From Paenibacillus daejeonensis DSM 15491 (GTDB lineage: Bacteria; Bacillota; Bacilli; Paenibacillales; Paenibacillaceae), in the NCBI RefSeq assembly GCF_000378385.1, contig NZ_KB899659.1, forward strand, positions 89,418 to 153,417: a DNA stretch of 64,000 bases, given 5' to 3'. This document shows positions 95 to 58,095 of the stretch, in pieces. The position numbers and the translations under genes were made by a program. The notes beneath the pieces were generated by a model that worked only from the letters and a program-made list of their open reading frames with translations, searched no databases and was not told the origin of the DNA. Within the stretch, counting starts at the first letter, position 1; every line of letters begins with the position of its first letter.

Positions 95-109
95 GAGAGT
101 GTCGATTAA
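95..109 (+). repeat. Left terminal inverted repeat of the IS
   Basis: GAGAGTGTCGATTAA, exactly complementary to 1946-1960. Confidence 0.9.
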
Positions 110-177
110 TTCCGCGAAATCTATTAAATTATCACGTGTGTCCTCACCTGCGTGATAAAATAGTGATAACTTATAAA

Positions 178-1851
178 ATGGGGGCGTTTTGGTTGGCACA
201 GACGCGTTATAAGCAGTTGAATCAGATTTCATTTGCTGATCTGGAGGTGTACTCGGTGTTGCCCGAGCATCCCATCTGGAGTCGGGCGGCCGAAGTGCTG
301 GATTTCAGTTTTGCGGATGAAATCTGTGCGCCGCTCTATGCTTCGCGTGGACCCAAACCCTACGCCCCTTCGTTGAAACTGAAATTGCACCTGGTACAAC
401 GTTATTACAATCTCTCTGACCGCGCGATGGAAGAGCGGGTCATCGGTGATCTGTTCATCAAGCGTTTTCTGGGGCTTCCCGTCAGCTTCATAGGCTTCGA
501 TCACAGTACCATTGCGCTGGATCGGGAGCGGATGGGCTCGGATTTGTTCGACGCCTGTCATCACCACATCCTTGCGCAAGCCAAGCAGAAAGGCTTGTGG
601 GGAGGGGAAAAGGACGTCTGGCTCATTGACTCCTTTCACACAGACGGTCGTGTTCCTAGGCGCTCATCTTTCCGCCTCATCAAGCAGGCTGTGTTACGGG
701 TCATGAATCATCTCAAACGCGCGCATCCGCCCCTATATCGTCAATTGAACCTTGATCTAAAACTTGATGTGCTCTCCGATAAACTGCCAGCGACAGCTAC
801 CCCGGAGGACGTCGCCGCCTTGTACAGTCAGCTCGTTGTTTTTGCTTATGGGCTCCTGCATTGGTTTGAAAAACCGGCGATTCGCAAGCTATTCTGGTCG
901 TGGGAGAAACAGGATCGTCAACTTGAATCCCTCGTGCGTCAAGGAATTTTGTTTCGTATTCTCAACGAAAACACAATGCCCGAAGACCCTGAAGATCCGG
1001 AGCGTCCGTACGAGAAACGCCCACGCTCCAAGCGTCCGACCGACCGTCTTCTTAGCAGCGTGGACCCCGATGCGCGGGTCGCGAAGAAACGGGGTAAGAC
1101 GTATTTCGGTGATAAGACTCAAGTGTTGATGTCCACCGAACACGATATGGTGTTGCTTGCAGAACCGTTCCCTTGTAATGAGCATGATGGGCAAAGTTTA
1201 CCCGAGATCGTCGAGGCTGTATGGTACATTCATCGGGTGACGCCGGAAGCCGTAGTGGGTGATTCCGCGTACGGGTATGGTCGCCATCGACGAAGCTTTG
1301 CTAACGGGAGTATGAAGTTGGTGGCTCCCTTGCAGGCCGTCCACGACAATCCCAAAGGGTTATTCTCTAACAAACGTTTTACGTACGACAGCGAGGCGCA
1401 AACCATGACCTGTCCCGCAGGCATCGTGACGAGCAAGCATCATGACAACCGCCACTTAAAGGGCACGCAGTTCACCTTTCCGAAGCAGGCTTGCATGACA
1501 TGTACCTTGCGTGAATCTTGCACGACAAGCGCCTCTGGCCGAAGCATTTTCATCAGTGACTATTATGAAGAATTTCAAGCAGCCGAAGCTTTTAACGAGA
1601 CGGATGAAGGCAAACATTTACTCAAGCAGCGAAACGCCGTGGAACGCAAAATTAATGAAATGAAGAATGCGCAAGGTCTGGGTCAAGCACGCACCTGCTC
1701 AAGAGAAAGACGCCGCCGAGACGTTAAGCTCGTATGCATGGTCGTGAACCTGAAACAGTTCATTAAACAGGCGACAAACAAGTTGACCTTGGGGTTTGTT
1801 CGAAAACGGCCCCTTAGGCTTAGTGCGCCCTTTTCGGGAAAATTAGCCTAA
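178..1851 (+). CDS. IS1182-family transposase
   Basis: A DDE transposase of about 557 residues that would cut and paste the surrounding element. The N-terminal region (residues ~10-115) is the IS1182-type domain, ending near the GFDHSTIALDRERMG stretch. Candidate catalytic acids are in WLIDSFHTDG, in VVGDSAYGYG, and in NAVERKINEMKNAQG near the end. A cluster of cysteines (CPAG, ACMTCTLRESC) sits between the second and third acids, as in other members. ATG 178 is chosen because homology-like sequence begins there; the frame is open back to a GTG at 136, and no clear ribosome binding site marks either start, which is common for transposases. Confidence 0.88.
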   Translation: MGAFWLAQTRYKQLNQISFADLEVYSVLPEHPIWSRAAEVLDFSFADEICAPLYASRGPKPYAPSLKLKLHLVQRYYNLSDRAMEERVIGDLFIKRFLGLPVSFIGFDHSTIALDRERMGSDLFDACHHHILAQAKQKGLWGGEKDVWLIDSFHTDGRVPRRSSFRLIKQAVLRVMNHLKRAHPPLYRQLNLDLKLDVLSDKLPATATPEDVAALYSQLVVFAYGLLHWFEKPAIRKLFWSWEKQDRQLESLVRQGILFRILNENTMPEDPEDPERPYEKRPRSKRPTDRLLSSVDPDARVAKKRGKTYFGDKTQVLMSTEHDMVLLAEPFPCNEHDGQSLPEIVEAVWYIHRVTPEAVVGDSAYGYGRHRRSFANGSMKLVAPLQAVHDNPKGLFSNKRFTYDSEAQTMTCPAGIVTSKHHDNRHLKGTQFTFPKQACMTCTLRESCTTSASGRSIFISDYYEEFQAAEAFNETDEGKHLLKQRNAVERKINEMKNAQGLGQARTCSRERRRRDVKLVCMVVNLKQFIKQATNKLTLGFVRKRPLRLSAPFSGKLA

Positions 1852-1945
1852 CCGCAGGCTCGTAGCGACTACTGCAACTGCCTCTAAACTGTGGAAAAGC
1901 GCTAAAATGAAGCAACGGCGGCAGCAGAACTGCTTTACTCCATGT

Positions 1946-1960
1946 TTAATCGACACTCTC
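1946..1960 (+). repeat. Right terminal inverted repeat of the IS
   Basis: TTAATCGACACTCTC, the exact complement of 95-109. Confidence 0.9.
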
Positions 1961-53369: not shown

Positions 53370-54302
53370 TTAACGCAGTCTTAGACGCGGGTCCAGCAGC
53401 AGTTGGATGAGGTCCACGATCAGATTAACCATCACAACGATAACGGCCATCATAAATACATAGCCCTGGATCACGATATAATCCTTGGCAAAAATCGCAT
53501 CCACGGCGTACTTTCCAATACCCGGCCAAGAGAAGATGCTCTCGATGATTACGGATCCCCCTAACAGGCTGGCCGTTTGGATACCCAGGAGGGTAAGGCT
53601 TGGCAGCACAGCATTCCGGAGGGCATGACTGCTAATGATCTGCCATTCTGGAAGCCCCTTGGCTCTGGCAGCTGTGACGTACAGCTTGCCCAGTTCCTCC
53701 AGCAGATTCGCACGAATGAGTCGGATATAGATACCCGCCATGCCGCAGCCCAACGTTAAGGCGGGCAACACGATGCTTCGAGCGCCCTCCATACCCATTA
53801 CGGGAAACAGCTTCAGCTTGACGGCACCGTAATACAGCAGCAGCAAACCCAGCCAATACCCCGGCATCGACGCACTGGCCATAGCGATTAACCTGCCCAG
53901 CCGATCCAGCCAACTGCCGGGATACAGGGCAGATCCAATCCCAAGGGGCAAGGCGATCAACATCGCTGCAGCCAACGCGCCTCCTGCGAGCAGTGCTGTG
54001 GCCGGAAACCGCATCATCAGCTCCGACATGACCGGTCTCCCACTGCTATACGAGATGCCAAGATCCAGCTGTAGCAGCTGAACCAACCAGCTCAGATATT
54101 GTTCAGGAATGGAGCGGTCGAGTCCCAGTGTAATCCGGGTCATTGCAATAGCTTCCTGAGTAGGCTGGATGCCATCGGCTCGTAACATAATTTCGGCTGG
54201 ATCACCGGGTGTCAGATGCATCAGGAGGAAGGATATCGCCGAAATGCCCAGAAGGACGGGGATGACTTGTCCAATCCGCTGGATCAGATAACGAGCAAAC
54301 AT
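53370..54302 (-). CDS. ABC transporter permease, OppB/NikB type
   Basis: 310 residues, starting MFARYLIQRIGQVIPVLLGIS with the family phrases LTPGDPAEIM, LGLDRSIPEQYLSWL and AARAKGLPEWQIISSHALRN (EAA loop), GIGKYAVDAIFAKDY. First gene of the seven-gene operon permease-permease-ATPase-ATPase-binding protein-methyltransferase-methyltransferase. AAGGAGTGGC precedes ATG. A TATAAT and a palindromic site lie just upstream. Confidence 0.88.
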   Translation of the reverse strand: MFARYLIQRIGQVIPVLLGISAISFLLMHLTPGDPAEIMLRADGIQPTQEAIAMTRITLGLDRSIPEQYLSWLVQLLQLDLGISYSSGRPVMSELMMRFPATALLAGGALAAAMLIALPLGIGSALYPGSWLDRLGRLIAMASASMPGYWLGLLLLYYGAVKLKLFPVMGMEGARSIVLPALTLGCGMAGIYIRLIRANLLEELGKLYVTAARAKGLPEWQIISSHALRNAVLPSLTLLGIQTASLLGGSVIIESIFSWPGIGKYAVDAIFAKDYIVIQGYVFMMAVIVVMVNLIVDLIQLLLDPRLRLR

Positions 54303-54444: not shown

Positions 54445-54633
54445 CTCTAACGGCCACCGAGACGCTTATTTCACCGATTTGATAGTGGTTTCAGGGCTAA
54501 CGGACACAGTTGCCGCTATTTGACCCAAATCCGTTGGCATGCTCTCAAAAAAGTAGAAATAGGTGCGCTCATGTCCGTTAGAATCTCAAACAGCCAATTC
54601 CGAGCTGAATAGGTGCTGTGGTGGCCGTTAAAG
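54445..54633. repeat. Family A array: two direct and two inverted units
   Basis: CTAACGG begins at 54447 and 54497 (50 bp apart); the inverted CCGTTA(G/A) begins at 54575 and 54625 (again 50 bp apart). Each core extends about 25 bp, ending in a TATTT/AAATA-like part. No gene or ribosome binding site lies in 54345-55059. Confidence 0.7.
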
Positions 54634-54780
54634 TTAACGACGCGTTAGCAAAACACTGAGAGGGAAATTGTGCCAACACCACTGTGCAACCCGCATTTCA
54701 TAATGTTCATCAGTGTTTAAAGCTCCGGACGAGCGTTCTATGAAGCGGCTTGTTTGGTCCAGGAATAGATTTACGCCCAT

Positions 54781-54970
54781 TAAAGACAAAAGTACAGTTA
54801 CTAGCTCACGATACTAGCGACGAAACGCAGTTAGAGTCAAAAGTACAACTATTTCGCTCGTTTATGGAATTATATGGTTATATCAGCGATATTAACTGCA
54901 TTATTGTCCTTACGAGCTGGATCATCGTCACTGTGGCTAGATTTAAGTGTATTTTTGTCCTTATTAGCTC
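54781..54970. repeat. Family B array: two direct and two inverted units
   Basis: CAAAAGTACA begins at 54787 and 54838 (51 bp apart); TTGTCCTTA begins at 54904 and 54955 (51 bp apart) within inverted copies of the same core (TAACTGNATTNTTGTCCTTA). Same period and symmetry as family A, different sequence. Confidence 0.7.
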
Positions 54971-55093: not shown

Positions 55094-55627
55094 TTACTCC
55101 AAATCGGCAAGCTCCGATTCGGTAACCCATTTGTGATTGCGGACCTGCTCTCCGTCTGTTGTTTGTTCGTAGTCAACCATATAGACCGTGGTAGCTTCCG
55201 CAGCATCAATTGTTGCTACGGCTCCCTCCATTCCTGCCATATGATCTGCCTCGAGAGTGACTTGATCGCCTGGACGATAAGACTCGGGGGCCGCATCTGC
55301 AATCTCTTCATGGATGACCCATTGATGACCGGTAACCGGCTCCCCGCCTGACTGAGGCGAATACGAAACAATATAGACTATTGTTTCATAGGCCCCAACG
55401 ATAGTGGCCTCTGCCCCGTCCATCCCCGGCATGTGATCCGCCCGGATGATGGCTCGACTACCTGCTGGATAACGGGGGGCCGCTGCCGTCTGCAAGCCTT
55501 CTGGGAGATCGCCAGATGATGAATGGTTCATCGCATCGTGTCCGTCATGATCTGCTGGCCCTGCTTTGCCGCAAGCACCTAGCAACAGCATCACTACGAG
55601 AACGATGCTTATCCAACGCCAATTCAT
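55094..55627 (-). CDS. YdhK family lipoprotein with two DUF1541 repeats
   Basis: 177 residues with lipobox LLLGAC (Cys19), a short His-rich stretch (DHDGHDAMNH) and two YdhK/DUF1541 repeats of about 55 residues (GSRAIIRADHMPGMDGAEAT and GDQVTLEADHMAGMEGAVAT). Each repeat has His and Met pairs (ADHMPGM) that could bind copper. ATG 55627 has GGAGGCG in front; the open frame upstream is copA shadow. It follows copA by 41 bp, probably in one transcript copZ-copA-ydhK. Confidence 0.85.
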   Translation of the reverse strand: MNWRWISIVLVVMLLLGACGKAGPADHDGHDAMNHSSSGDLPEGLQTAAAPRYPAGSRAIIRADHMPGMDGAEATIVGAYETIVYIVSYSPQSGGEPVTGHQWVIHEEIADAAPESYRPGDQVTLEADHMAGMEGAVATIDAAEATTVYMVDYEQTTDGEQVRNHKWVTESELADLE

Positions 55628-55668
55628 TATATTTTCGCCTCCAGATTCGTATGGTTCGCCTAGTTGGC

Positions 55669-58095
55669 CTACAGCTTGACCCGCTGCAACCGCAGCGCAT
55701 TCAGCACAACCGAGACGGAGCTGAAGGCCATCGCTGCGCCTGCGACCCATGGAGCCAGCAGGCCAATGGCGGCAATCGGAATGCCACCTGAGTTATAAGC
55801 AAGTGCCCAGAACAGATTCTGCCGGATATTGCGCATCGTCTTGCGGCTCATCCCGATCGCATCGGCAATGCTGTTCAGATCCCCTCGCATCAATGTGACA
55901 TCTGCCGCTTCCATGGCTATATCGGTTCCGGTCCCCATCGCCATCCCGATGTCTGCAGCTGCCAGCGCAGGCGCATCATTGATGCCGTCACCTACCATAG
56001 CCACCTTTCGCCCCTGGGCCTGCAGTTTGTTCACCTCGTCGGCTTTTCCTTCCGGCAGCACTTCTGCCAGTACATGATCAATCCCTGCCTGTGAGGCAAT
56101 GGCCTGGGCGGTGCGGGCATTGTCGCCGGTGATCATGATTACTTCCAGTCCCATACGTTTCAACCGGCTAACGGCTTCTCTGGAGGTCGCTTTGATCGTA
56201 TCCGCAACGGCAACCATCCCTGCATACTGCCCATCTATGGCCACCAGCATCGCCGTTTTCCCCTGCTCTTCCAGACGGGTCATTGTATCCAGCGCGTCGG
56301 CCGGGTAGACTTCGTATTTGGCCATCAGGCGGCGGGTGCCAGCCAGAATGGTTCTTCCTTCTACAAGGGCTCGAATCCCATGTCCGGGTATAGCCTCGAA
56401 TTCGGTAGCTTCCGGCAGATGGATGCCCCGCTCCTGCACGCCTCTGACAATCGCTTCTGCCAGCGGATGCTCAGACCCCTTCTCAGCGGCACCGGCAAGA
56501 CGCAGCAGCTCATTCTCGTCCAAGCCTGCAGTCACGACATCCGTTAGCTCCGGTTCGCCCTTGGTCACCGTCCCCGTCTTATCCAGGATGATTGTGTCAA
56601 TCCGATGCGTGGATTCCAGATGTTCACCACCCTTGAACAGGACGCCCATTTCGGCGGCTCGTCCAGAGCCAGCCATAATGGAGGTCGGGGTCGCCAGACC
56701 AAGCGCGCAAGGGCAGGCAATGACCAGGATAGCAATGGCAATTTCCAGAGCATTTCCGAACTCGCCTGGTGTAACTAGCAGGTACCAGATGGCGAAGGAA
56801 ATGAGCGCAATGGCTACCACCACAGGAACGAAGATACCCGAGATCCGGTCTGCTACGCGCTGGATAGGTGCCTTCGAGCCCTGCGCTTCCTCGACAACCT
56901 TAATAATTTGGGCCAATGACGAATCCTTTCCGACTTTGGTCGCGCTTAGCTTGAGACGTCCATTCTTGTTAACCGTTGCACCGATTACAGCATCGCCTGG
57001 ACGCTTCTCCACTGGAATACTCTCACCTGTCAGCATGGACTCGTCTACAGCAGAGTTCCCCTCCAGCACCTCACCGTCCACAGGGATCTTCTCCCCGGGC
57101 TTGACCAGGATGAGATCGCCGGCCACAACTTCCTCCAGAGCCACCGATTGCTCACGACCGTCCCGTATGACTAGTGCGGTCGTTGCGCGGAGATCCATCA
57201 GTTTCTTGATCGCCTCCGACGTCCTTCCCTTGGCTCTTGTCTCGAACAATTTGCCAAGCACGACCAGTGTGATCAGCACAGCACTCGTCTCAAAATACAG
57301 ATCCGGCCCGTGATGTCCAGGACTCCCCTCTGCTGCCCAGAGGATGGACAAATACACACTATAGAAAAAAGCAGCAGATGTGCCTAACGCGATGAGAACA
57401 TCCATATTGGCGCTCTTATTGCGCAGCGCCTTGTAGGCCCCTGTATAGAACGGGAGTCCGATATAGAACTGGACCGGTGCCGCAAGGACCAGTTGAAACC
57501 ATGGATTCATGAATAAATCGGGCATCCAAATCCAGGAGGTGAACGAGAAATGAGTGACCATCGCCCATAACAAAGGGACCGACAGGATAGCCGAAATGAG
57601 AAACCGCCGCCAACCTCGTGCAATGTCCTGCGACCGTCTAGTCTCTTGATCGGGTTGATCCTGCTTTGGAGCTGCTTGGTAACCAAGCTTTGCCACACGC
57701 TGTTGGATTTCTCCCACCGTTACATCCCCTGGATGATACGAGACATGAGCAGTCTCCAAGGCAAAATTGACTGTCGCGTCTGAGACTCCAGGCAGCTTGT
57801 TCAGCCCCTTCTCGATTCGGGTGGCACAGGCAGCGCAGGTCATGCCGGACAGTACCAATTCAACACTTTCCTTAACCGTTCCATAACCGAGCTTTTCTAT
57901 CCTTTGCTCTATGGCTTCCGGACTGGTCTGAACTGGATCATAGGAAATTGTGGCCCGTTCCAACGCAAAATTGACATTGGCTTGTTCCACACCTTCGAGT
58001 CTGCCGAGCCCCTTCTCAATCCGGTTGGCGCATGCAGCACAGGTCATCCCCGAGATCTGCACAGCGCTTTGTTTAAGCTGTGATGGTTGTTGCAT
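55669..58095 (-). CDS. copA: Copper-exporting P1B-type ATPase
   Basis: 808 residues. Two N-terminal heavy-metal domains, both with GMTCAACA/T (CxxC), then eight helices, actuator [13 protein letters not shown], the metal-channel motif [12 protein letters not shown] in helix 6, phosphorylation site [11 protein letters not shown], the HP of SEHPLAEAI, and hinge [16 protein letters not shown]. The last helices have [10 protein letters not shown] and [15 protein letters not shown], typical of Cu(I) pumps. It receives Cu(I) from CopZ, encoded 37 bp upstream. Standard length. Confidence 0.94.

Follow-up and report, generated by a model that had tools for sequence, protein, structure and literature searches.

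We found that positions 54447-54631 of the analysed window (the whole 64-kb stretch of DNA) are probably, at odds that we put at about two in three, one copy of a dispersed, non-coding module of ~185 bp, at which a site-specific DNA-binding protein docks and the DNA is wrapped (or strongly bent). The putative protein would form a two-fold symmetric assembly on the four cores of the module and would wrap or loop the DNA, with the A/T minor grooves turned towards the protein. In the least certain step, the complex might act on chromosome architecture or supercoiling between genes, by analogy with BIME-2 and gyrase in Escherichia coli. The best reading of the sequences is that the module is mobile-derived and that its core decamers have been kept; the protein and the host function are both inferred.

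The complete element at 54447-54631 (185 bp, no strand assigned) consists of two direct and two inverted cores around a dyad at 54539. The outer core c1 (54447-54471, plus strand, CTAACGGCCACCGAGACGCTTATTT) is followed after 50 bp by the inner core c2 (54497-54521, plus strand, CTAACGGACACAGTTGCCGCTATTT), and the inner inverted core c3 (54557-54581, minus strand) is followed after 50 bp by the outer inverted core c4 (54607-54631, minus strand). Within the 185-bp unit, spacers of 25 bp separate the outer from the inner core on each side, and a centre of 35 bp separates the direct from the inverted pair; the cores (~24 bp, TAACGGMCA...TATTT) are mirror-symmetric and stand at fixed offsets. The initial annotation had placed CTAACGG at 54447 and 54497 and the inverted CCGTTA at 54575 and 54625, and all four positions were confirmed. 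The spacers and the centre (54472-54606, made up of 54472-54496, 54522-54556 and 54582-54606, no strand assigned) carry A/T patches phased at ~10.1 bp, a phasing established on the family as a whole, to which this copy belongs. The copy is the first row of the gap-free alignment A1, and profile R1, a sequence-only profile built from 41 copies that align gap-free, matches it at 54447-54630 with 112.9 bits (E 3.6e-34). It sits in a 791-bp gap between two minus-strand genes, upstream of 53370-54302, which is oligopeptide-permease-like as named from its translation, and downstream of 55094-55750.

A second four-core element at 54780-54964 (no strand assigned, dyad at 54872) is built on a different core, TAAGGACAAAAATACACTTA. 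Its plus-strand cores at 54784 and 54835 and its minus-strand cores at 54909 and 54960 are 51 bp apart on both sides, its A/T ladder has an amplitude of 9.8 and a phase of 0.0 relative to the dyad, and R1 matches it weakly (54836-54959, E 0.005). The inner word of this element, AAGGACA, forms an exact pair at 35-55 bp in one other place of the genome, which looks like chance, and judged by its word the second element may be single-copy in this genome.

At the start of the window lies a partial copy (18-94, no strand assigned), bounded by the window start and an insertion sequence (IS), with the inverted core c3 and most of c4; R1 matches it at 18-95 on the minus strand (E 4.9e-8). The IS (95-1960, plus strand, 1,866 bp) lies within core c4, has the ends GAGAGTGTCGATT and AATCGACACTCTC, is accompanied by a duplication of the 5-bp TATAT, and carries a transposase frame at 196-1851 that matches Pfam DDE_Tnp_1_6, DUF772 and DDE_Tnp_1 above cut-off. 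The last bases of the partial copy resume at 1966-1974. Removal of the 1,866-bp IS by script brings the CCGTTA that follows the one at 47 to position 97, exactly 50 bp further on, as had been proposed. Similar IS-like junctions, with TGTCGAT adjoining a core, occur at loci L012, L066, L013 and L245, and the same kind of IS end is found inside or beside cores at other copies, as if the IS prefers these elements. At 2050-2080 of the window, CTAACGGCCACCCCATGTCCGTTAG consists of two cores joined head to head in a short palindrome, perhaps the deletion product of an element.

The core is strongly enriched in this genome. CTAACGG occurs 13 times in the 64-kb window, compared with a mean of 4.03 in 100 shuffles, and the core pattern TAACGGMCAN{5,11}TATTT has 208 matches in the genome searched (7.46 Mb, 36 contigs), compared with 1 for the reversed-pattern control, showing that the enrichment is not due to chance. 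Profile R1 gives at least 151 strand-wise matches in this genome, corresponding by hand count to at least 101 distinct places; the search scored the best 150 candidates at most, and these copy numbers are lower bounds. Among core pairs no more than 300 bp apart at the extracted loci of this genome, a spacing of 50 bp is found in 67 of the 102 ++ pairs and in 59 of the 104 -- pairs, and one of 132, 82 or 182 bp in 228 of the 282 +- pairs. The preferred ~50-bp spacing and orientation expected from the locus are therefore seen genome-wide. The core-to-core length is 183 bp in 35 of 42 copies here and 182-185 bp in all 42. The view that the fixed spacing does not fit a simple duplication holds for the 185-bp unit, but whole units do occur in tandem, in 262-bp steps at L006 and in 254-bp steps at L108. 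By crude ORF calls, the genes flanking 99 elements are convergent in 31 cases, codirectional in 57 and divergent in 11; four of these 99, and 6 of all the elements examined, overlap ORFs of at least 300 nt. The elements are dispersed, non-coding and mostly intergenic.

The spacers had been described as unconserved. Their sequences do diverge, but the pattern of A/T versus G/C is conserved between copies and is helically phased. The top period of the A/T profile over 185 columns is 10.1 bp, both in 41 copies from this genome and in 42 copies from other species chosen by their cores alone. Copies more than 85% alike were removed before the folding, partner and A/T-period tests (41 copies here and 42 elsewhere, earlier 29), a rule that excludes the Paenibacillus macerans/Paenibacillus oralis set from the 42. 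When the cores are masked, the power observed between 10.0 and 10.8 bp is attained in 0 of 2,000 shuffles. The per-copy phase coherence is 0.978 in the 41 copies and 0.973 in the 42, with mean phase angles at the dyad of -0.07 and 0.06 rad, respectively, while the coherence of the flanks is 0.116 here (n=156) and 0.06 in other species (n=158). The ladder also crosses the centre, with an A/T content of 0.95-0.98 at columns 81-83 and of 0.93-0.95 at columns 92-93. Because the patches are phased at ~10.1 bp, the 50-bp step amounts to about five turns of the helix and that across the dyad to about six, which places all four cores on one face. Within the patches, A runs and T runs interchange (AAAA/TTTT), indicating that it is the shape or bendability of the DNA, not its sequence, that is kept. 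In a static wedge model, the end-to-end ratio is 0.901 and 0.885, compared with 0.923 and 0.927 for shuffled sequences, and only 5% and 14% of copies lie under the 5th percentile. The model predicts only weak intrinsic static curvature, a point against our reading, and with such weak curvature the ladder would read as a fit to a protein surface, not as a strong bend of free DNA.

Phased A/T in intergenic DNA would also be expected of strong gyrase sites, at which the phased arms would wrap on the GyrA C-terminal domains and the dyad would be the cleavage site. In an account of the E. coli gyrase motif (PMC6379681), the motif spans ~130 bp with phased G/C content and gyrase sites are enriched in BIME-2. 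The same account gives it a non-periodic 36-bp centre between two 47-bp periodic arms, whereas the ladder found here spans the centre and extends over ~185 bp. Strict, lineage-specific core words are also not expected of a universal enzyme, and we consider a gyrase site unlikely.

Two readings of the repeats had been left side by side in the initial annotation, a transcribed structured RNA and a protein-binding array, and only the latter fits. A structured RNA, an attenuator or a long-hairpin element would agree with RNA folding that is far more stable than that of dinucleotide shuffles (mean z -5.2 and -6.2), with the column shuffle across species (z -12.4) and with the terminator-like hairpins that adjoin some subfamilies. 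However, inverted cores, together with core words that differ between species, would by themselves give stable folding and a cross-species signal, and within this genome the column shuffle yields z +1.5. In the 41 gap-free copies, the 75-pair hairpin has 65.9% paired cells, compared with 67.1% after shuffling, and 500 of 500 shuffles equal or exceed the observed value; the covariation score of 0.098, compared with 0.108 in shuffles, gives no compensatory changes. Nor are hairpin partners more alike within a copy than between copies: the z values for c1:c4, c2:c3 and s1:s2 are -1.9, -2.2 and -1.4 in the 41 copies here, and -1.4, -0.9 and -3.7 in 32 of the 42 other copies, permuted within species, named species with a single copy being left out. 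Rfam gives 0 matches at the gathering score in the 64-kb window. The within-genome tests lead us to reject a structured RNA as very improbable, despite the single-sequence and cross-species shuffles. A protein-binding array fits the fixed offsets, the dyad symmetry, the helical phasing and the finding that the core decamer changes more slowly between orthologues. Directly repeated neighbours are more alike than expected, with z values of +3.6 here and +1.2 elsewhere for c1:c2 and of +0.1 here and +2.3 elsewhere for c3:c4, which hints at local exchange or joint recognition.

Many near-identical copies are present in P. macerans MER 50.2 (G056) and P. oralis KCOM 3021 (G058). Identity to the query locus is 87.3-95.5% in the 39 further copies that were compared with it, and their number is a lower bound, the search having taken the best 20 candidates per genome. 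The repeated unit in these species, at ~350-370 bp, is longer than the four-core part: a terminator-like hairpin and ~60 bp precede the four-core module, and a pyrimidine tract and then an A/T-rich end follow it, so that the cores are internal. Among ten loci tried, one is clean: G056 and G058 have the filled site and G055, G065 and G066 the empty one, and on the right the element borders on the A-tract of a terminator-like hairpin next to it; the other nine have gaps of other sizes or unmatched flanks. In the youngest subgroup of this genome, homology ends on the right within a few bases of the outer core and on the left 0 to ~100 bp further, and at L245 it ends at the outer core on both sides. 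The outer cores c1 and c4 form terminal inverted copies that are 71.5% identical on average here.

The dispersed near-identical copies, the filled and empty site, the homology ends at the outer core and the patchy exact-core copy number are consistent with a miniature non-autonomous transposon. Its outer cores would be terminal inverted repeats and its inner cores subterminal transposase sites; it would have no host function, and the phasing would be needed only for the short DNA to loop and its ends to be brought together. However, none of 161 flank pairs shows a target duplication (the best of 576 offset/length combinations reaches a mean flank identity of ~0.34, compared with 0.25-0.30 expected), and no recurrent transposase is found beside copies among the 25 largest neighbour clusters, whose translations read like transporters, regulators and other common families. 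The internal position of the cores in the longer P. macerans unit also speaks against a transposon that ends at them. We regard such a transposon as possible but doubtful; it overlaps with the docking and wrapping module that we prefer, since each of the two requires a protein on the phased DNA. Half elements on either side of a gene would be the sign of an autonomous element, but the cases seen were all IS interruptions, divergent arrays or chance pairs from genomes that are unrelated, and no recurrent transposase was seen at them. At L128 (Paenibacillus sp. D2_2), another, different IS-like gene starts directly after a truncated element.

We compared the cores and spacers of seven orthologous P. 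macerans/P. oralis pairs. The core decamers carry substitutions at 6/280 positions and the spacers at 58/651 (p 6e-5), while the remainder of each core, with 35/364, is conserved no more than the spacers are. Between paralogous copies the contrast of decamers and spacers recurs (0.016 versus 0.094). Spacer divergence is 0.089 between orthologous and 0.094 between paralogous copies; orthologues are thus not more alike, as after a burst shortly before the split or after exchange between copies. These sequence comparisons make selection in place on the core decamers likely, although transposition or exchange between copies could also explain the contrast between decamers and spacers. In the 40 near-identical copies of P. 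macerans and P. oralis (L202-L241), the middle of the inner cores, about six bases, varies far more than do the outer cores and large parts of the spacers. The spacer ATTTCCCGGGTATTT, seen between c1 and c2 at L113 and in copies in L202-L241, resembles the Noc-binding site ATTTCCCGGGAAAT.

The four-core unit is found well beyond this genome. It occurs at 52 places in named contigs (80 of at least 105 stretches read, 175-195 bp allowed), and its length is 183 bp at 42 and 182-185 bp at 51 of the 52. It is present in many Paenibacillus species, in Fontibacillus and in Cohnella, and with 185 bp in Bacillus sp. Marseille-Q3570; the odd length, 195 bp in Cytobacillus depressus, belongs to a tandem array of another build. 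Many of the listed stretches from unrelated phyla look like chance pairs. The two-core pattern is found in 4 of 398 sampled genomes of the phylum, where besides this genome only G782 has several two-core matches, with a different spacer. Tandem arrays of 51-52-bp units are seen at L074 (C. depressus) and at L177, L180 and L182 (G782); each unit carries TAACGGACA and an inverted TGTCCGTTA or TGTCCGATAG, and these arrays are perhaps a distant relative of other build. On the minus strand of L123 (Paenibacillus vini), from ~3034, at least five degenerate direct units follow one another ~50 bp apart, compared with the usual two.

Across 394 Paenibacillaceae genomes, exact-core counts range from a background of 0-3, like that of the control, up to 237 in P. 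oralis (G058), followed by 163 in P. macerans (G056) and 82 in G169; these counts underestimate the elements, as congeners are missed. Such a very patchy exact-core copy number is odd for a housekeeping role and limits our reading in this respect. With the exact core pattern, six congeners look empty. R1 gives strand-wise matches in four of the six (at least 119 in G003, 147 in G005, 50 in G004 and 4 in G001) and zero in G002 and G006, so an absence from congeners was rejected as an artefact of the exact pattern. The congener cores are CTAACGGTTGCCACAGCGGC in G003, TAACGCTCGCC and TAACGCTTGCC in G004 and CGGMCACACGTTCCGCTATTT types in G005. Centred by their own symmetry, the congener places have phases of ~0 and coherences of 0.988 in G003 (10 places, several near-identical), 0.984 in G005 (10 places) and 0.711 in G004 (6 places, one mis-centred near a contig end), which is weaker evidence than that from the core-picked set, as these places were found by R1, which holds A/T columns. 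In these sequences, the geometry is kept across congeners while the recognised core word changes, which suggests that the recognising protein would drift in specificity.

A more far-reaching proposal, which we put forward only tentatively, is that the element represents a new class of nucleoprotein element: a nucleosome-like positioning module of ~18 turns, dyad-symmetric, with four sites and ~100 intergenic copies, bound by a lineage-evolving architectural protein that would wrap the DNA and partition or buffer supercoiling in Paenibacillus. Literature searches found no paper describing the element. If the wrapping reading is true, many intergenic regions of Paenibacillus contain sites prepared for DNA wrapping, and alignment would hide their conservation, since nothing but helical phase and A/T content is kept. 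The reading would also predict a protein that wraps or bends DNA at specific sites in this family, which comprises soil, plant-associated and industrial bacteria, and lineages with other core words and the same geometry would be natural replicate experiments on the co-evolution of protein and site. Before the spacers of bacterial repeats are described as unconserved, their shape should be tested.

The element shares features with several known systems. Like the REP/BIME elements of enterobacteria (BIME-2 with gyrase), it is dispersed, intergenic and mosaic, comprises a few units of fixed orientation and has a proposed function in DNA topology. It differs from them in having four ~24-bp cores in the order direct-direct-inverted-inverted, a fixed length and a ladder throughout, and in lacking the GTAG tag and, above cut-off, a RAYT. 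Like REPIN/RAYT (TnpA-REP) systems, it comprises short inverted doublets multiplied without coding capacity. The RAYT model NF047646 exceeds its cut-off in 0 of 40 genomes; below cut-off it matches 5 of the 13 high-copy genomes and 5 of the remaining 27, a split between carriers and non-carriers that is blurred by exact-core undercounting, and it has no match at all in this genome (G000) or in G056, G058, G356, G357, G352, G239 and G251. REPs are defined, in PMC3733652, as palindromes of 20-40 bp tagged GTAG or CGTC, and neither tag is found at the core ends in the 41-copy consensus, which begins CTAACGG. With no RAYT over cut-off in the 40 genomes and no tagged 20-40-bp palindrome, a RAYT/REPIN origin was ruled out. 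The E. coli gyrase motif likewise has helically phased A/T on either side of a dyad, but it is 130 bp long, has a non-periodic centre and is without strict words (PMC6379681). Bacterial MITEs resemble the element in their terminal inverted repeats, dispersed near-identical copies and empty sites; the element differs in its fixed length across genera and its phased interior, and no target duplication was found for it, nor a partner transposase beside copies or at half elements. Because REP/RAYT elements, target-duplicating MITEs and the E. coli gyrase motif each have tested defining features that it lacks, we file it under none of them. Nucleosome-positioning DNA has A/T steps about every 10 bp and dyad symmetry, with base identity free, and is not known to have strict cores; the element has the same steps and the same symmetry, and strict cores besides. 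In function, by analogy, the element would work like BIME-type elements.
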